Shown here: one piece after another, positions 3 to 59,412 of the stretch | Numbering within the stretch: the first letter of the stretch is position 1 | Layout: each line of letters opens with the position of its first letter | The notes under the pieces: model-generated | Databases searched by the model: none | Seen by the model: the letters and a program-made list of their open reading frames with translations, nothing else | Told to the model about the DNA's origin: nothing | NCBI GenBank assembly: GCA_903893815.1 | Contig: CAITNS010000040.1 | Location: 62,001 to 126,000, forward strand | Length of the DNA: 64,000 bases | Direction of reading: 5' to 3' | Source: an uncultured Bacteroidota bacterium | GTDB taxonomy: Bacteria > Bacteroidota > Bacteroidia > B-17B0 > Aurantibacillaceae | Made by a program: the position numbers and the translations under genes

Positions 3-3000
3 GACCAAGAAGATGCTGGTTCTGGTGGTGGTGGCGGTGGCGGTGGCGGTTCAACTGCTGGTTTAAACGGCTCAAACGGTTCAGGAAATTTTAATTCAGC
101 AAACAACTGCTCTACAGTGGGTGGAGCTTTTGGAACTGCTGGTTCAACTGGTGGTAATGGAGGAACAGGAGCTTCTGATCCTGATGCATGTGGCTGTTGT
201 AATAATGGCGGCGGCGGTAATGCCGGTGCAATTTCAATAAATTCACAAAGCGGCGGCGGCGGCGGCGGCGGCGGTAGCGGAGGTTCAGAAAGTAGAGTTG
301 GTGGAGCTGGCGGTGCTGGCGGAGGCGTATTTAGTCATTTAGGAGCAAATAATACAGGTGGAACTGGTGGCTCTGGGGGAGATCCAGGAGGAAGTGGTTC
401 GGTAGGAAGCGCTGGAACAAATGGAGCAATTGGCTCAACTGGCACTGTTGGATCTGCTGGTTCGGATGCAACTGGTTTTTGGGCAGTTGGAGGACAAGGC
501 AGCACTGGAGCTAATGGATTTGGTGGACAAGGCGGCAGAGCTGGCGGCGGCGGCGGCGGTCAAGGTTGTACTTTCTGTATAGACGGGGCTGGATCTGGCG
601 GCGGCGGCGGCGGCGGAGGTGGTCAAGGTGGATATGGTGGAAACGGAGGTTTTAGCGGCGGATCTACCTTTGGTATATTTATATTTAGTAATGGAGTAAA
701 TGGTAATATAGTAGATTGTCAAATAATCAACGGTTCGTTTGGAGCTGGAGGAACTGGCGGAAGCGGTTCAGTTGGTGGAAGTGGTGGAAATGGCGGTTTA
801 GGAAGCCCTTATAATTTAGGAGAAGTTGGGGCAGGTGGAAATGGAGGGAGAGGTGGAAATGGAGGACAAGGCGGAACTGGAGGAGCTGGAAGTGCTGGTA
901 TTGCAAATCCAGTAAGAGTTGTGGGAGGTTCCGGATTAACTTCTAATATTTCAACTTTTACTTTATCTACTCAACCAGTTATTGTTGTTGAAAATAAAGC
1001 TTGTTCAAATGTAAATATTGCACATACAACTAGTTTAGGTTCACCGGTATGGTCTTCTTTTGGCATAAGTGCTGCGCCCGCATCTGGTTCTGGGTCGCCA
1101 GTAAATACTAGTTATTCAACATTAGGTCGTAAAACTGTAGTAATGAATACAAGTAATTACACGGATTTTAATAATATTATTGTTAGCGCACCTTCCACAG
1201 GTTCTATTGTAGCCTCTGCTACATCTATTTGTCCTGGTTTTGTAAATTTTGCTAGTACTGCTGTCGGTACTGCTGGATTAAATTATACTTGGTCAGTACT
1301 TCCAGCAGGAGCAACAATTTCTTCTGCCTCAACAAGTACGACGTCTGTTTTATTTCCAAACGCAGTATCTACATCTATTACCTACACAATCACATTATCT
1401 ATTACAACAAATTGTTGTGGAGCATTAGCACCAGTTACCACTACGGTTGTTGTAAACCCTATACCAGTTGCACCTTCTGCTATCGTTAATTCAATTTGTA
1501 TTGGCGGCATTGCAACATATTCAGCTACTGCACCTGCAGGAAGCTCTTTTAATTGGTATAATGCAGCTAGCTCTGGAACCTTATTAGCGTCTGGTAACAC
1601 TTATTCTGTAGCTAATGTTTTAACTCCAATTACTGTTTACTTGCAAGCGACAAATTCTTCAGGATGTTCAAGCACTCTTACTCCTGTAGTTGTAACGCCA
1701 ACGGCCGTTCCTCCTCCAACAGGTATACCTGGCTCTGCATGTGATATTGGAATGGTTCAAGTAGGAATTAACCCAGTGACTGGAATTACAAACTATAATT
1801 GGTATTCGGATGCTGGCGGAACAACATTAGTTCAATCTGGTAACAGTTTAAATTATAGTCAAAACATTGCAACTGCTGGTGGCACTTACATTGTTTATGT
1901 GCAATCTAATATTGCTGGATGTGCGCCAAGCGGTTTAGTGCCAATAACGGCTAGTGTTTCGACAACACCTATTACGCTTGCTCAAACTATTTTACCAAAT
2001 GATACGGTTTGTATTAATACACCCGTTTCAATTTCGTTAAATCCAAGTGGAGGAAATGGATCATATACCTATACATGGTCTCCAATCACTTCAAACCTAA
2101 GCAGCATTTCTCAAACGGTAAGCTTATCAACATCTTATAATGTTTTTGTGAGTAGTAACGGTTGCTCAAAATTATTTTATCTTCCAATTATTGTAAACCC
2201 ATTACCAAAAGATACTATTGGAACTCCTTTAGCAATTTCTTGTACCAATAGTTTAGTAACATTAGATGGTTCATTCTCTGCATCAGGCGCTGGAATTAGC
2301 TATAGTTGGACAACTTCTGGAGGAATAATAGTTTCTTCGGCAATAAACAATACGGTTTCTGTAAGCACAGCTGGAACATACTCCTTATTAGTAACTGATG
2401 GCGTTACAGGTTGTTCGTCAACACAATCAGTTTCTGTTACTGGTAGTTCAAGTTTACCTACATTAACTATAAGCGCTTCGTCTAACACCTTAACATGTGC
2501 AACACCAACTATACAATTAACAGCTTCAAGTTCTACAGGTGGCGTAACTTATTCATGGACAACCATTGGTGGTGCATTAACAAGTGCAACTATCGCTAAC
2601 CCAATTGCTACTTCCAGTGGAACTTATATTGTTGTGGTAACAAATACAGCTACAAGTTGCCAATCAACACAAACCATTAATATTGTTCCTGATACTTCGA
2701 TTCCAACGGTTTCCGTGTCTGCTAATAGTTTAACTATTACATGTACAAATACAACGGTTACAACTGCTTTAACATCCACAAATACTATTTCGAGTTATAG
2801 TTGGAGCCCAATCCCATCAGTTGGTGGTGCCAATCCTGTATTTAACACATCAGGGTTATATAACGCTACTATCACTGCAAGTAATGGATGTTCTATAACT
2901 ACAGCGGTTAATGTAACCACAGATAATTTAGCGCCAAATGTATCTTTAACCTCTGCTGTTAATAGTGGAACCATAACTTGCTTTAGCCCATCAGTAAACA

Positions 3001-5792
3001 TATCTCCAACAATAACACCCAATAGTAGTAATTTAACTTATACTTGGTCTCCTAGTAATGTATCTTCAAGCACTTTATCTGCCGCAACTTTTACAGTAGC
3101 AGGCATCTATACGTTAGCTATTACGAACACGTTAACAGGTTGTGTGACTTCATTAACGAACACAGCAAATACATTTACAGTGATTGCTAATAATGCTCCT
3201 CCTACTTTTACGTTAGGTACATTGCCATCATTAACTACAACATGTTCATCGCCTACTGTTGCACTATCAGCATCAAGTAATGCTGGAGTTAACGGAGTTT
3301 ACACTTGGCTTACTCCTGTGCCATCAACACTAACAGGCAACCCAATCAATGCCTCAGCTGCTGGAATCTATACAGTTTATATTACTGATACCAATAGTGG
3401 ATGTAGCAGTGCTTCTGCTGGACAAAATACAGTTGAGATAGTAGCCGATGCTGGTATACCTACGGTATTATTAACAGCTAATTCATTATCAATTACTTGT
3501 TCAAACACACAACCTACTCTAACGCTTACTACTTCAGCACCAACAAACTCTGTAACCTATGCTTGGACTCCAACTGTTGGTATTATACCAGGAACAGAAA
3601 CAACGGCATCGCCTTCGTTTAGTGCCATAGGAAATTACAGCGTTGTTGTTACAAACACTGGTACAGGTTGTGCTTCAAGTATTTCGTTAAACACAGTAAC
3701 TGTTTCATTGAATAACACCATTCCTACTACAACATTATCATTAGCGGCAAATGATGGGACATTAACGTGTTTAACAACTTCTATTTCATTAACACCAGTG
3801 ATTAGCCCTTTAAGTCCCGATTTAACATACACTTGGTCTCCTAGCGCTGGAATCTTTGGATCGGCAAATCAAGCTAATGTAACCTTTACTGCCTCAGGAA
3901 TATATACTTTAGCTATAACAAATACCTTAACGGGTTGTGCTTCTGTGCTTACTAATACTGCTAATATATTTTCAGTGCAACAAACCATTAATACTCCTAC
4001 TATTACTCTAACAAGTACTGGTGGAAATACAGGTACATTAACGTGTTTAACAATATCAATAGTTGTAACACCAACGGTGATTCCTGCTAACTCTACCTAT
4101 ACATGGACATCTAGTACGGGTACATTTACAAATACCATTGATGCTATATTTACTGCACCTGATAGTTATACTTTAACTGTAACAGATGCTGTTACTGGTT
4201 GTACAACTTCTGCTACTAATCCTGCTAATGTATTTACGGTGTATCAAACGATTGTTACACCTACCATCACTTTAACAAATGCGGGTGTTAATACAGATAC
4301 ATTAACGTGTTTAACGACATCAATTGTAGTTACACCAACTGTTATACCTGCTGGGTCTACTTATACATGGACATCGGGATTAAGTGGTGTGATAGCAAAT
4401 TCATCTTCTATTTCAATAACATCTCCTGATAGTTACACTTTAACTGTGACTGAAGCTGTTTCGGGTTGTACAACTTCTGCTACGAACCCTGCTAATGTAT
4501 TTACGGTATATCAAAATACGGTAGTTCCAACTGCGACATTATCTTCAGTAGGCGCTAACTCTGGAATTATTACTTGTACAAATACATCTGTATCAATAAC
4601 GCCAGTTGTACTTTCAACTGCTAATTTAACCTATACTTGGTCGCCTAGTGGTGTTATTTCTTCTTCTATTAATGATGCAACTTTTACTTCACAAGGTGTT
4701 TATACCTTAGCTATTACAAATACATTAACAGGTTGTGTAAATTCATTAACTAATACAGCTAATATCTATACTGTAACTGATATTAGAACTCCGATAACGG
4801 CATCTATTAGTCCAACATCTACCAATGTAATAATTGGCTGTGGCGCTAGTAATTCTTCTGTTACTTTACAAGGAGGGTCTAATGCAATTACTCCATCATA
4901 TACATGGATGCCGGGTGGCATTAATACTCAAACAGTTGCGGCAATTGCTTCAGGTGACTATACATTAAGTGTTGTAGATGCAACTAATGGATGTACATCT
5001 TTTACTACAATTACTGTAATTGGAAGCACAACAACACCTCAAGGCGTTGATGCTGGAGCATCTGCTAACATTGCTTGTGGCAGTGCAACGGTAAATTTAA
5101 ATGGTGTAACTACTACGCCAAACACTAGTTTTTCTTGGAGTGGGCCTTCTGCTACTAGTATTATATCTGGAAGTAATACTGCAAATCCTATCGTAACAGA
5201 AGTTGGTGATTATACGTTAACAGTAACTGATAACTTAACTGGTTGTTCAAGCTCTGCCATTGTAAATGTTACACAGGCCATAGCAACAGCCACTATCACA
5301 GCAAATCCAACTTCTGGTATATCCCCACTTGTTGTTGCTTTCACTGGTTCTAGTGCAGGAAACCCCAGCTATAACTGGAATTTCGGTGATGGAAGCACAT
5401 CAACTAACCAAAATCCAAATAATGTGTTTAATGCTGGAACGTATACCGTGGTATTAACAACGACATCTGGAACTTGTGTTGCAACAGCAACAGTTGAAAT
5501 TTTAGTAGAAGATGGCTTTACGCTAGAAATACCAAACGTATTTACACCAAATGATGATAAATCAAATGATATATTTAAGATAAAATCAACAGGCGTTAAG
5601 GAAATATCATTGCAAATATTTAACCGTTGGGGACAAAAACTATATGAATTTTCTGGACCAAAAGCTTCATGGGATGGAATAACTCCTAATGGTGTAAAGG
5701 TTCCAGAAGGGACATATTTTTATTTCGTAAAAGCTACAGGTTTTGATGGTCAAGAAATAGAAAAACATGGTACAGTAAATTTATTTAGATAA
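3..5792 (+). CDS. Giant T9SS type-B adhesin-like protein, glycine-rich plus Ig-like repeats (5' partial)
   Basis: The reading frame is open to the left edge, so the true start and signal peptide lie outside the window; 1929 residues are visible. Residues to about 300 form a glycine-rich track of GG, GGA and GGN runs resembling mycobacterial PE_PGRS tracks. Then follow many Ser/Thr-rich Ig-like/PKD-like units of about 80-95 residues, each with a TYTWS-type strand and a YTLxITN-type strand. A PKD domain (NWNFGDGS) lies near residue 1780. The C-terminus is a gliding-motility-type (type B) sorting domain with QIFNRWGQKLYEF and ending GTVNLFR. The family is exported by T9SS and attached to, or released from, the cell surface. 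The usual FTPNGDG motif reads FTPNDDK. An adhesin role is inferred. The closest relative here is the protein at 9888. Confidence 0.85.
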   Translation, partial: DQEDAGSGGGGGGGGGSTAGLNGSNGSGNFNSANNCSTVGGAFGTAGSTGGNGGTGASDPDACGCCNNGGGGNAGAISINSQSGGGGGGGGSGGSESRVGGAGGAGGGVFSHLGANNTGGTGGSGGDPGGSGSVGSAGTNGAIGSTGTVGSAGSDATGFWAVGGQGSTGANGFGGQGGRAGGGGGGQGCTFCIDGAGSGGGGGGGGGQGGYGGNGGFSGGSTFGIFIFSNGVNGNIVDCQIINGSFGAGGTGGSGSVGGSGGNGGLGSPYNLGEVGAGGNGGRGGNGGQGGTGGAGSAGIANPVRVVGGSGLTSNISTFTLSTQPVIVVENKACSNVNIAHTTSLGSPVWSSFGISAAPASGSGSPVNTSYSTLGRKTVVMNTSNYTDFNNIIVSAPSTGSIVASATSICPGFVNFASTAVGTAGLNYTWSVLPAGATISSASTSTTSVLFPNAVSTSITYTITLSITTNCCGALAPVTTTVVVNPIPVAPSAIVNSICIGGIATYSATAPAGSSFNWYNAASSGTLLASGNTYSVANVLTPITVYLQATNSSGCSSTLTPVVVTPTAVPPPTGIPGSACDIGMVQVGINPVTGITNYNWYSDAGGTTLVQSGNSLNYSQNIATAGGTYIVYVQSNIAGCAPSGLVPITASVSTTPITLAQTILPNDTVCINTPVSISLNPSGGNGSYTYTWSPITSNLSSISQTVSLSTSYNVFVSSNGCSKLFYLPIIVNPLPKDTIGTPLAISCTNSLVTLDGSFSASGAGISYSWTTSGGIIVSSAINNTVSVSTAGTYSLLVTDGVTGCSSTQSVSVTGSSSLPTLTISASSNTLTCATPTIQLTASSSTGGVTYSWTTIGGALTSATIANPIATSSGTYIVVVTNTATSCQSTQTINIVPDTSIPTVSVSANSLTITCTNTTVTTALTSTNTISSYSWSPIPSVGGANPVFNTSGLYNATITASNGCSITTAVNVTTDNLAPNVSLTSAVNSGTITCFSPSVNISPTITPNSSNLTYTWSPSNVSSSTLSAATFTVAGIYTLAITNTLTGCVTSLTNTANTFTVIANNAPPTFTLGTLPSLTTTCSSPTVALSASSNAGVNGVYTWLTPVPSTLTGNPINASAAGIYTVYITDTNSGCSSASAGQNTVEIVADAGIPTVLLTANSLSITCSNTQPTLTLTTSAPTNSVTYAWTPTVGIIPGTETTASPSFSAIGNYSVVVTNTGTGCASSISLNTVTVSLNNTIPTTTLSLAANDGTLTCLTTSISLTPVISPLSPDLTYTWSPSAGIFGSANQANVTFTASGIYTLAITNTLTGCASVLTNTANIFSVQQTINTPTITLTSTGGNTGTLTCLTISIVVTPTVIPANSTYTWTSSTGTFTNTIDAIFTAPDSYTLTVTDAVTGCTTSATNPANVFTVYQTIVTPTITLTNAGVNTDTLTCLTTSIVVTPTVIPAGSTYTWTSGLSGVIANSSSISITSPDSYTLTVTEAVSGCTTSATNPANVFTVYQNTVVPTATLSSVGANSGIITCTNTSVSITPVVLSTANLTYTWSPSGVISSSINDATFTSQGVYTLAITNTLTGCVNSLTNTANIYTVTDIRTPITASISPTSTNVIIGCGASNSSVTLQGGSNAITPSYTWMPGGINTQTVAAIASGDYTLSVVDATNGCTSFTTITVIGSTTTPQGVDAGASANIACGSATVNLNGVTTTPNTSFSWSGPSATSIISGSNTANPIVTEVGDYTLTVTDNLTGCSSSAIVNVTQAIATATITANPTSGISPLVVAFTGSSAGNPSYNWNFGDGSTSTNQNPNNVFNAGTYTVVLTTTSGTCVATATVEILVEDGFTLEIPNVFTPNDDKSNDIFKIKSTGVKEISLQIFNRWGQKLYEFSGPKASWDGITPNGVKVPEGTYFYFVKATGFDGQEIEKHGTVNLFR
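251..275 (+). repeat. GGC trinucleotide run coding poly-glycine
   Basis: An almost pure GGC run inside the first adhesin gene, with similar shorter runs near 543-556 and 595-613. All are in phase with the reading frame, so changes in copy number would lengthen or shorten a glycine tract without breaking the frame. They are strikingly GC-rich against an AT-rich gene. Confidence 0.8.
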
Positions 5793-57140: not shown

Positions 57141-57842
57141 ATGAATGTAGAAATTTGGAGTGATGTGATGTGTCCGTTTTGCTATATAGGCAAACGCAAA
57201 TTTGAAAATGCCTTAGCAAAATTTCCTCACAAAGATAAGATCAATATCATCTGGAAAAGTTTTCAGTTAGACCCAACAACTGTAACTGACCCAAGCTTAA
57301 ATACTATAGATAACTTAGCAGAAAAGAAAGGCTGGAGCAAACAACAAGCGCAAGAAACTACTGCACAGGTTACTAACATTGCTAAACAAGTAGGTTTGGA
57401 TTTTCATTTCGAAAAAGCTGTGGTGGCAAATTCATTTAATGCACATCGTTTATCACACTTAGCAAAAAAGTATGGTAAACAAAACGACCTAGAAGAAAAA
57501 TTATTCTTAGCGTATTTTACCGAAGGTAAAAACACTGCCGACCACCCTACTCTATTACAAATTGGTAAAGACTTAGGCATACCTGAACAAGAAATTACAG
57601 CTGTTTTAAATAGCAATACATACGCAAACGACGTTGAACAAGATATTACGGAAGCACAACAAATTGGGGTGCGTGGCGTTCCCTTTTTTGTATTGGATAG
57701 AAAATATGCAGTTTCTGGCGCTCAAGAATCTGAAACTTTTTTAGGTGCTTTAACTAAAGCCTACGAAGAACATGCAAATGGTATCATAGAACCAATTGCT
57801 AATAATTCTTCTTGTGGTTGCGGGCCAGAGGGGTGTAACTAA
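57141..57842 (+). CDS. DsbA-family oxidoreductase (FrnE-like)
   Basis: 233 residues, thioredoxin fold with a helical insertion. The active-site motif is DVMCPFCYIGKRKFE (Cys-Pro-Phe-Cys near 11-14), and the cis-proline loop is GVRGVPFFVLDRKYAVSG (near 172-189). There is no signal peptide, so it is probably cytoplasmic, like FrnE (2-hydroxychromene isomerase/DsbA superfamily). The C-terminus SSCGCGPEGCN has three more cysteines that could bind metal or take part in thiol exchange. The family has roles in oxidative stress and polyketide biosynthesis; the role here is not known. Confidence 0.9.
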   Translation: MNVEIWSDVMCPFCYIGKRKFENALAKFPHKDKINIIWKSFQLDPTTVTDPSLNTIDNLAEKKGWSKQQAQETTAQVTNIAKQVGLDFHFEKAVVANSFNAHRLSHLAKKYGKQNDLEEKLFLAYFTEGKNTADHPTLLQIGKDLGIPEQEITAVLNSNTYANDVEQDITEAQQIGVRGVPFFVLDRKYAVSGAQESETFLGALTKAYEEHANGIIEPIANNSSCGCGPEGCN

Positions 57843-57980
57843 CTTTTTGTGCCTCGTTACTTTTTTACTTAGTTAATTTTAAAGGATGGGGTCCTACCAT
57901 CAACGCTTATATCCAAACTGGAAAAGTAAACGTTTGTATTTAATTTAGTTGGACTATTAATATTGAGCGTGAAAATCAAG

Positions 57981-58136
57981 TAGTATCAAATACGCTGTTA
58001 TGTGTGGAGATGATTTTGGGCTGTTCGCGCAGTGCTTCAAATCATCTGTTTGATACTATGCAGATTTTAGCAAAATTTTAATAAGCCTTGTTACGCCAAG
58101 GCGTGATTGCAACTTTTTGTATCAAGACAAAAAGTT
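57981..58136. other. Hairpin-rich intergenic segment, possible structured RNA or decayed mobile element
   Basis: The 361-bp gap (57843-58203) has no gene. Nested inverted repeats form an extended fold: TAGTATCAAA (57981-57990) with TTTGATACTA (58049-58058), and inside it GATGATTT (58009-58016) with AAATCATC (58039-58046). Next come GCCTTG/CAAGGC (58085-58102) and AACTTTTTG/CAAAAAGTT (58111-58136). AACTTTTTGT is also found at 57841-57850. The segment ends in a terminator. Confidence 0.5.
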
Positions 58137-58150
58137 TTAAGAATATCAGG

Positions 58151-58190
58151 AAAAGAAAAACCCTCATAAATGTGAGGGCTTTTCTTTTTA
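58151..58190. terminator. Bidirectional terminator before the acyl-CoA dehydrogenase gene
   Basis: CCCTCA at 58161-58166 pairs with TGAGGG at 58173-58178, with A-rich and T-rich flanks. The acyl-CoA dehydrogenase gene on the minus strand ends at 58204, and the segment upstream runs towards it. Confidence 0.8.
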
Positions 58191-58203
58191 GTTTATTTAA
58201 ATA

Positions 58204-59346
58204 CTAATCTGCTAAAAGAGCTCTAGAAATAACAATACGTTGTACCTCGCTAGTACCTTCGTAAATTTGAGTAATTTTTGCATCACGCATTAAACGCTCC
58301 ACATGGTATTCTTTAACGTAACCATAACCACCATGAATTTGAACGGCTTCAGTAGTTACCCACATAGCTGTTTCTGATGCAAAAACTTTTGCTTGCGCGC
58401 CTTCTTTTTCGCAAGGTAAACCTTGGTCTTTTAACCAAGCCGCACGGTAAATTAATAAACGAGCTGCTTCAATACGAGTAGCCATATCAGCTAATTTAAA
58501 TTGAATAGCTTGATGCTGAGAAATTAATTTACCAAATGCTTTACGCTCTTTTGAATAAGCCAATGCTAATTCATAAGCACCACTCGCAATTCCCAATGCT
58601 TGTGAAGCGATACCGATACGGCCACCGCCTAAAGTTTTCATCGCGAATTTGAAACCAAATCCTTCTTCACCAATACGATTTGCTTTTGGAACCTTTACAT
58701 CTGTAAACATTAAAGAGTGAGTATCACTTCCGCGAATACCCATTTTATTTTCTTTAGGACCTACCACAAATCCTGGCATTCCTTTTTCAATAATTAAACA
58801 GTTAATTCCTTTGTGCCCTAATTCCACATTAGTTTGAACCATTACTAAATAAATAGAAGCACTGCTTCCGTTAGTAATCCAATTTTTTGTACCATTTACT
58901 AAATAATGGTCGCCTTGATCGATAGCCGTAGTGCGTTGAGATGTAGCATCACTACCTGCTTCTGGTTCTGACAAGCAAAATGCACCTATCACTTCACCTT
59001 TAGCCAAAGGCACTAAATATTTTTGTTTTTGTTCTTCGTTACCAAAATGCTCTAATCCCCAACATACTAATGAGTTATTTACACTCATTACCACACTAAC
59101 CGAAGCATCTATTTTAGAAATTTCTTCCATTGCTAGCACATATGAAATAGCATCCATACCGCCACCGCTGTATTTCGGGTCAACCATCATTCCTAAAAAA
59201 CCCAATTCTCCAAGTTTTTTAACTTGTTCTGCTGGAAATTTTTGGTGTTCATCTCTCTCAATTACTCCTGGTTTGCAGTCGTTTTGAGCGAAATCTCTTG
59301 CTGCTGCTTGAATCATCAATTGCTCTTCTGTTAGTTGAAATTGCAT
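58204..59346 (-). CDS. Acyl-CoA dehydrogenase
   Basis: 380 residues, a FAD enzyme for the first step of beta-oxidation (short- or medium-chain or butyryl type). The start at 59346 gives MQFQLTEEQLMIQAAARDFA. A longer reading to 59412 would place 22 extra residues in the promoter region, so it is rejected. Signature segments are GAFCLSEPEAGSDATSQRTT, GIASQALGIASGAYELALAY and the catalytic Glu in QIYEGTSEVQRIVISRALL. The length is typical. It lies alone on the minus strand with its own promoter. Confidence 0.95.
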   Translation of the reverse strand: MQFQLTEEQLMIQAAARDFAQNDCKPGVIERDEHQKFPAEQVKKLGELGFLGMMVDPKYSGGGMDAISYVLAMEEISKIDASVSVVMSVNNSLVCWGLEHFGNEEQKQKYLVPLAKGEVIGAFCLSEPEAGSDATSQRTTAIDQGDHYLVNGTKNWITNGSSASIYLVMVQTNVELGHKGINCLIIEKGMPGFVVGPKENKMGIRGSDTHSLMFTDVKVPKANRIGEEGFGFKFAMKTLGGGRIGIASQALGIASGAYELALAYSKERKAFGKLISQHQAIQFKLADMATRIEAARLLIYRAAWLKDQGLPCEKEGAQAKVFASETAMWVTTEAVQIHGGYGYVKEYHVERLMRDAKITQIYEGTSEVQRIVISRALLAD

Positions 59347-59383
59347 GGTTGTATGTTTTAAATAGTTGAACGAATTATACTCA

Positions 59384-59412
59384 CAAAAATAGAAGATATT
59401 TCCAATTATCAA
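59384..59412 (-). promoter_or_regulatory. Promoter of the acyl-CoA dehydrogenase gene
   Basis: On the minus strand TTG (59412-59410), 18 nt, then TATTTTTG (59391-59384). It ends 38 nt before the ATG at 59346 and proves that the longer reading frame above is not used. Confidence 0.8.

Follow-up and report, generated by a model that had tools for sequence, protein, structure and literature searches.

A dispersed hairpin repeat with a pseudoknot-like tail, probably a non-autonomous mobile element, downstream of a dsbA-like gene in Bacteroidota

The 361-bp gap between two convergent genes at 57843-58203 of the window (the whole 64,000-nucleotide stretch of DNA analysed here) contains, at 57951-58136, what is probably one copy of a small, gene-free dispersed repeat, inserted downstream of the stop codon of a dsbA-like gene and spreading in trans by way of a folded strand. 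This repeat is best read as a non-autonomous mobile element of the ERIC/REP/MITE kind with an unusual tail, and neither as a stand-alone RNA gene nor as something simply decayed. It recurs in many copies, is dispersed mostly between genes, is absent at orthologous sites and keeps its shape by compensatory change, which bears out the mobile repeat that a preliminary description of this gap had offered as one of two readings. Beyond that, we infer mobility in trans and the recognition of one folded strand.

The intergenic gap and its parts

Upstream of the gap lies a gene of 233 aa on the + strand (57141-57842), which is presumably DsbA/FrnE-like; the preliminary description calls it DsbA-like. 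The convergent neighbour on the - strand (58204-59412), drawn like the former from the ORF listing and also the neighbour in relatives, is presumably an acyl-CoA dehydrogenase-like gene. The gap has no ORF of at least 60 aa in that listing, in agreement with its earlier description as gene-free, and it holds three things: a left part without recognisable origin (57843-57950), the repeat (57951-58136) and a predicted intrinsic terminator (58151-58188). The + strand fold of the gap has an energy of -99.8 kcal/mol against -72.4 +/- 4.6 for shuffled sequences (z -5.94, with none of 100 shuffles as good), and the - strand fold a z of -5.30. Promoter-like sites in 57500-58500 are not above chance (2 found, 3.0 expected), and Rfam gave no match in the window at the gathering threshold, 29 weaker matches all being below gathering scores.

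The stems reported earlier lie where they had been placed, and the hairpins are real. The outer nested arms (57981-57990/58049-58058) have the 10 bp announced and, with the part that they enclose (57981-58058, + strand), make up the helix with the strongest compensatory changes, while the inner arms (58008-58016/58039-58047) have 9 bp and not 8. The pairing extends further than the stacked set that had been proposed, to a main hairpin at 57951-58087 (+ strand), which is predicted from the consensus structure, the compensatory changes and a model match of 130 bits (E 1.6e-25). A 6-bp stem, GCCTTG/CAAGGC, can be seen in the sequence near 58085-58103, and a 10-bp hairpin, AACTTTTTGT-ATCAAG-ACAAAAAGTT, at 58111-58136. 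The tail of the repeat (58087-58136, + strand) is a candidate H-type pseudoknot, in which S1 (58087-58092) would pair with the loop at 58121-58126, and S2 is formed by 58111-58120 with 58127-58136. The tail linker contains a small palindrome, TTACGCCAAGGCGTGA (58091-58106, + strand), that is common to some relatives. This palindrome (and TCACGCCAAGGCGTGA) recurs in or beside repeats in the window, L022, L017, L055 and the tails of genomes G013 and G010, and may be a tiny nested element.

Judging by its counterparts, the terminator (arms 58151-58166/58173-58188) is the host's own terminator of the convergent gene pair and no part of the repeat, because such counterparts stand in relatives' gaps without the repeat. 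In five of the 16 relatives' dsbA-like loci (L059, L060, L064, L065, L070), the fetched stretch includes the convergent acyl-CoA dehydrogenase-like neighbour as well. In all four gaps read (L059, L060, L065, L070) a stem followed by T lies between the two genes, and the hairpin repeat is in none of them; a very similar terminator also stands behind another gene of the same genome. The terminator thus drops out of the stacked set, and the suggestion of a non-coding RNA having its own terminator is not supported.

The left part (57843-57950) is not recognisable as repeat and is possibly a degraded spacer of the element. In the 20 genus genomes it has no unit-length copy and gives scattered matches of a few tens of bases, and two copies elsewhere (L010 and L022) carry similarity leftward to 57908/57919. 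The best tail-like alignment in 57838-57950, at 57857-57870, is marginal, 0.026 of 500 shuffles being as high. As had been reported, AACTTTTTGT occurs twice, at 57841 and again at 58111, with a spacing of 270 bp. The left one (57841-57850, + strand), an inverted match to 58127-58136, is a possible left-end remnant, but it is weak evidence of a second element end, given its overlap with the dsbA stop region and the position of the best tail-like alignment elsewhere. As to decay, which had been proposed too, the left third of the gap is indeed unrecognisable and S1 is imperfect, but the hairpin still scores 130 bits against the family model.

Copies, orthologous sites and genomic placement

The search for copies elsewhere that the preliminary description had recommended gave a clear answer. 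A second copy stands elsewhere in the window's own genome, with 80% identity over 57951-58136, between what are presumably a DUF5606-like gene and an M3-like peptidase gene. Own genome counted, DNA matches to the repeat are found in 13 of the 20 genus genomes and in 22 of the 87 family genomes. With a covariance model of the hairpin alone, at least 32 of 65 genomes of the order (4 of 10 genera) have matches, the richest with at least 24 copies; the order sample consists of genomes at >=90% completeness scanned with stricter filters, which makes these counts lower bounds. In the class sample the hairpin model matches at least 12 of 396 genomes, 11 of this family and 1 of another, again a lower bound under stricter filters and with 8 candidates per genome scored. 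The exact pattern of the hairpin tip, sought in 84,980 species genomes, occurs in 61 stretches: 54 loci match the profile, all titled Bacteroidota, and the remaining seven, from other phyla, have no profile match. In the sampled genomes, the repeat hardly occurs outside a single Bacteroidota family. Phage records have no match to it, plasmids have one 35-base match, to a full-length relative, and no IMG/VR contig has the exact hairpin tip. We found no description of the repeat in the open-access literature, a coverage that leaves most subscription journals outside.

Nearly all the long matches listed share 70-86% identity with the window copy and so give no evidence of recent movement; the exception is a pair of copies in genome G019 that are 96% identical over a stretch running beyond the module. 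Some copies in G019 contain about 165 nt further between hairpin and tail (L038:4694-4858), a stretch that is very numerous there (55 matches). In one frame this stretch reads like a protein C-terminus, and a protein-coding origin was considered and rejected: Pfam gave nothing credible, and we read the stretch as repeat and not as gene because stop codons are present in many of the related stretches in the family.

The repeat is in none of the 16 relatives' dsbA-like loci (L059-L074), lenient scan included. The dsbA-like gene was matched in 17 of the 20 genomes of the genus search, own genome counted, the seventeenth locus (L058) being that of the window's own genome and not counted among the 16. 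On this comparison the window copy is a lineage-specific insertion downstream of the dsbA-like stop codon, because none of those 16 loci has it. L059, the nearest relative, has a gap of about 106 bp, compared with the 361 bp of the window. This short gap has a marginal tail-like stretch at the insertion site, and the insertion could therefore predate the split and have been mostly lost there. For the marginal stretch of this kind in the relative G006, 0.048 of shuffles score as high, with 0.18 to 0.92 in the other four gaps tested, so that its gap may hold an old remnant instead of being truly empty. At the locus of the second copy, nine relatives keep both flanking genes together, and none of the nine has the repeat there. 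Other structured intergenic repeats stand at that place in L194, L196-L199, L201 and L205 (GGGCGTG...CACGCCC; CATCCTCCGTCCTGCGGACACCTCC; GTCCCTACGGGAC).

The placement of the copies was described from 92 distinct core sequences among 175 non-overlapping matches of 189 rows, some of which perhaps come from one genome under two names, and the genes around them are longest-ORF calls made without annotation. Three of the 92 lie within an ORF of at least 200 aa, each in its first 4-64 codons, and the rest outside such ORFs; the true start of the three may be further on. In three copies (L222:976-1752 and 2963-3922, L077:488-1618) a long frame runs open through the repeat at its upstream end, and the repeat might there be translated as an N-terminal extension. 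Thirteen of the 92 copies are overlapped by an ORF of at least 90 aa in some frame. Where neighbours were called on both sides (n = 72), 29 pairs are convergent and 12 divergent, a convergent excess that is expected if insertions near promoters are lost, and the repeat is found in both orientations relative to its neighbours. No convincing case of a recurring partner gene emerged at 54 loci: the commonest ORF clusters (13 and 8 loci) stand at varying distances and look, by eye, like common large protein types, and the two after these (7 and 5 loci) are reading frames that fall within the repeat. Genes with C-termini resembling type IX secretion sorting domains stand immediately upstream of several copies (L222 on contig 31 of G040, L010, L023, L027, L081, L242).

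The hairpin and its tail

The structure was derived from an alignment (A2) of 40 copies, kept out of 44 candidates of 180-200 nt; the 44 came from 48 distinct sequences, and these from 115 matches. L025, the second copy of L041, L057 and L039 were left out, their tails being different or of the longer G019 type. The 40 copies share a consensus of a single long hairpin, in which 41 pairs are predicted and 22 of these are changed on both sides. If 40 pairs are taken as the fixed structure, 95.8% of the cells pair, against 82.8% in shuffles, and when one side is slid by 1-3 columns, pairing falls to 35-49%. Double changes are present in 21 of the 40 pairs, a number that none of 500 shuffles reaches and that compares with 7-12 in the slid controls. 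In helix 3, 8 of 10 pairs are changed on both sides, and six neighbouring pairs (columns 35-40 with 114-119) show four to six pair types each. The covariation analysis called for in the preliminary description, which had counted a lack of such changes among relatives as refuting, finds them in abundance.

The hairpin begins with GGA in the window copy and with GGC in most copies and closes with GCC, its base reading GGC...GCC and then TTGA in most of them. The tip is nearly invariant (GGCTGTTCGCGAAGCGC in most copies), all 40 copies keep an internal loop that is one-sided, with 18-20 nt facing 3-4 nt, and the minimum-energy fold of the copy's own sequence closes both ends in 39 of 40. Mispairs on the + strand are unequally distributed, with 59 G.T against 12 A.C over the 40 pairs (82 and 36.5 in shuffles), or 59 against 20 (87 and 50 in shuffles) when the ambiguous pair 32/124, which has eight A.C cells, is added; neither ratio was reached in 500 shuffles. 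The imbalance is strongest in the window's genus, with 31 G.T to 2 A.C, and less marked in the others, with 28 to 10. This excess of G.T points to one folded strand over a double-stranded cruciform, and RNA and single-stranded DNA would fit it alike; the A.C excess in pair 32/124 lowers the strand signal somewhat.

The tail follows in this order: hairpin, CTTGAN, a T-rich linker, then a hairpin with the loop N'TCAAG. S1 is fully complementary to its own S2 loop in 32 of the 40 copies (shuffled mean 19.3, maximum 27 in 1000), the tail hairpin having been picked without reference to CTTGAN and an independent scan having also been made. In most copies S1 is CTTGAT, CTTGAA or CTTGAC, the matched loops including CTTGAA/TTCAAG and CTTGAC/GTCAAG, and the arms of the S2 stem change in step (TTTTTG/CAAAAA, TTTCTGT/ACAGAAA, TCCACTTTTT/AAAAAGTGGA). 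The window copy is outside the 32: its S1, CTTGTT, matches the loop ATCAAG at 5 of 6 positions, and the small palindrome is inserted there. We propose an H-type pseudoknot as the candidate arrangement of the tail.

A second hairpin module with an opposite-pointing tail precedes four copies in genome G008 (L012, L044, L045, L055), which have inverted tails at both ends, and in G010 and G013 a similar second module stands before a tail of this type. One tail design is therefore common to two hairpin bodies or more, which can be arranged head to head, and the full unit may consist of two hairpin-tail modules in that arrangement with their tails outward, the window keeping the right module only. 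No target-site duplication was seen, and the 96% pair in G019 defined neither a duplication nor an exact mobile unit. In the second hairpin family, several copies of which have CATACGTTGGTAATNGTGCGGC close to the start, the tail is likewise of this type; the family comprises L055, L045, L044, L033 and L024 (G008 and relatives), L021, L030 and L037 (G013) and L020 (G010), and by eye the outer stems are wholly different from copy to copy but pair nonetheless.

Possible modes of spread and known systems

How could such a repeat spread? On the reading that we prefer, it would do so in trans through an enzyme that reads one folded strand by its hairpin tip, one-sided bulge and tail, with a mode of movement as for REP, IS200/IS605 or attC substrates. 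Single-stranded DNA would be the likelier substrate, and an RNA intermediate less likely. A more far-reaching proposal, which we consider rather unlikely, is that the repeat represents a new type of non-autonomous element moved via a folded single strand, possibly of RNA as in SINE-like retro-mobilization, whose signals would be the 3' pseudoknot tail and the fixed bulge instead of a terminal sequence, several hairpin bodies sharing the tail.

The repeat is unlikely to be a REP-type element moved by a Y1 transposase of the TnpA-REP (RAYT) kind, such as those of the Bacteroidetes subclass 2.6. The GT[AG]G foot that marks the canonical REP/RAYT classes is not expected for this subclass. Some Y1 genes carry NHLH or NHFH and YIHQNP or YIHNNP (L127, L131), which would suit such a partner. 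Subclass 2.6 is the closest case described in the phylum: its genes occur chiefly in Bacteroidetes, and the atypical secondary structures on their flanks recur at other places in the genome (excerpt of PMC6006769); TnpA-REP moreover acts on folded single strands, strand-specifically (excerpt of PMC8266576). However, membership fails here. Eight of the 12 genomes searched have Y1 matches, 23 loci in all, and neither the hairpin nor the tail was found at any of them in flanks of up to 1.5 kb (shorter at contig ends). The other four genomes (G007, G008, G012 and G017) have copies of the repeat but no Y1 match. Many Y1 genes are instead flanked by other, short palindromes (GTCCCTACGGGAC, GCTCCGTAGGAGC, CAAGCCCGCAGGGCTTG, ACCTGACAGGTGTT; L110-L112, L115, L117, L118, L120, L124, L127, L129, L130), which suggests several REP-like families with their own partners.

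Just as unlikely, in our view, is a host-useful RNA element, a 3' UTR structure or a small RNA acting on transcript stability or processing and repeated by chance. The predominance of G.T over A.C on the + strand, the strong compensatory changes, the pseudoknot-like tail and the excess between convergent genes would all agree with it, as would the ERIC of Yersinia, which are co-transcribed and appear to affect mRNA stability (excerpt of PMC2229807). Orthologous sites without the repeat, its two orientations to neighbours, its patchy presence over genomes and the absence of an Rfam match at the gathering threshold speak against it.

The compensatory changes could also partly come from arm-to-arm repair and not from selection. 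Inverted repeats are prone to such correction, and the stems of the sister family, which differ wholesale but still pair by eye, would agree with it. That the repeat is altogether a neutral fossil shaped by this templated repair (quasi-palindrome correction) is nevertheless distinctly improbable: the one-sided internal loop is kept in every aligned copy, G.T is tolerated above A.C, the tip hardly varies, and the partner with which S1 covaries is a loop and not a neighbouring arm.

An integron attC-like recombination site is very improbable and largely refuted: attC sites are likewise folded strands recognised through their structure and unpaired bases (excerpt of PMC8266576), and G019 has clusters of copies a few hundred bp apart, but R-box motifs (RYYYAAC / GTTRRRY) stand near the base in 1 of 92 copies on the 5' side, 1 of 92 on the 3' side and on both sides in none, the copies in the clusters examined lie between ordinary genes or without a convincing gene between them, and none of 13 genomes has an integron integrase above the TIGR02249 cut-off, nor has any of 14 control genomes. 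Weaker tyrosine-recombinase matches exist in all 13 genomes; most have a tyrosine recombinase that measures about 370-385 aa and shows weak similarity to integron integrases. The version in the window's genome (L264) has 538 aa, and similar genes are found in L256 and L260-L262. In one of the 12 regions fetched for tyrosine recombinases (G034:C3, L255:3608-4723 and 4914-5052), a copy lies about 480 bp from the match to an IntI-like gene. We considered such a recombinase as partner and read this single case as coincidence.

The copy number varies from 0 to at least 24 per genome and orthologous sites lack the repeat, and the mobilizer of the element could therefore be sought by correlation over genomes. 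Furthermore, compensatory changes of this strength make the repeat a suitable test bed for asking which feature a mobilizing enzyme recognises, whether shape, tip, bulge or tail. More widely, the repeat points to intergenic DNA in these genomes that contains several families of hairpin repeats.

Compared with known systems, the repeat shares with integron attC sites a large imperfect hairpin, unpaired bases and a shape kept while letters change. It differs from them in having neither R boxes nor visible cassettes, nor an integrase above the cut-off. With REP/REPIN sequences it has in common imperfect palindromes, many intergenic copies, a favoured strand and some head-to-head pairs (excerpt of PMC6006769), but it is much larger, with a hairpin of about 140 nt and a tail of about 50 nt, and flanks none of the 23 Y1 loci. 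It may perhaps behave like REP elements in being cut as a folded single strand, strand-specifically (by analogy with the excerpt of PMC8266576). The likeness to ERIC/IRU, small MITE-like repeats, lies in a size of about 100-200 bp, a long stem-loop formed by pairing of the 5' and 3' ends, a spread over related genera and a mobilizer likewise not shown (excerpt of PMC2229807). Unlike these, the repeat has no sequence relation that we could see (no Rfam or text match), belongs to Bacteroidota and not to enterobacteria, has stems that diverge with compensatory changes and a pseudoknot-like tail after the hairpin, and its terminal inverted repeats and target duplication are not established. Non-autonomous repeats are also said to exist in Bacteroidota as the MITEs of Porphyromonas gingivalis. 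The repeat resembles them, and the MITE of Cardinium, in being non-autonomous and in its phylum, but has no parental IS that we could find, whereas that of Cardinium derives from an IS982-family element (excerpt of PMC9769881). In conclusion, the repeat is multi-copy, mostly intergenic, without coding capacity of its own, folded into a long stem-loop and present or absent at orthologous sites, all traits of the ERIC/MITE type, and it appears to behave like the small bacterial mobile repeats, ERIC, Correia and others, treated in the excerpt of PMC2229807.
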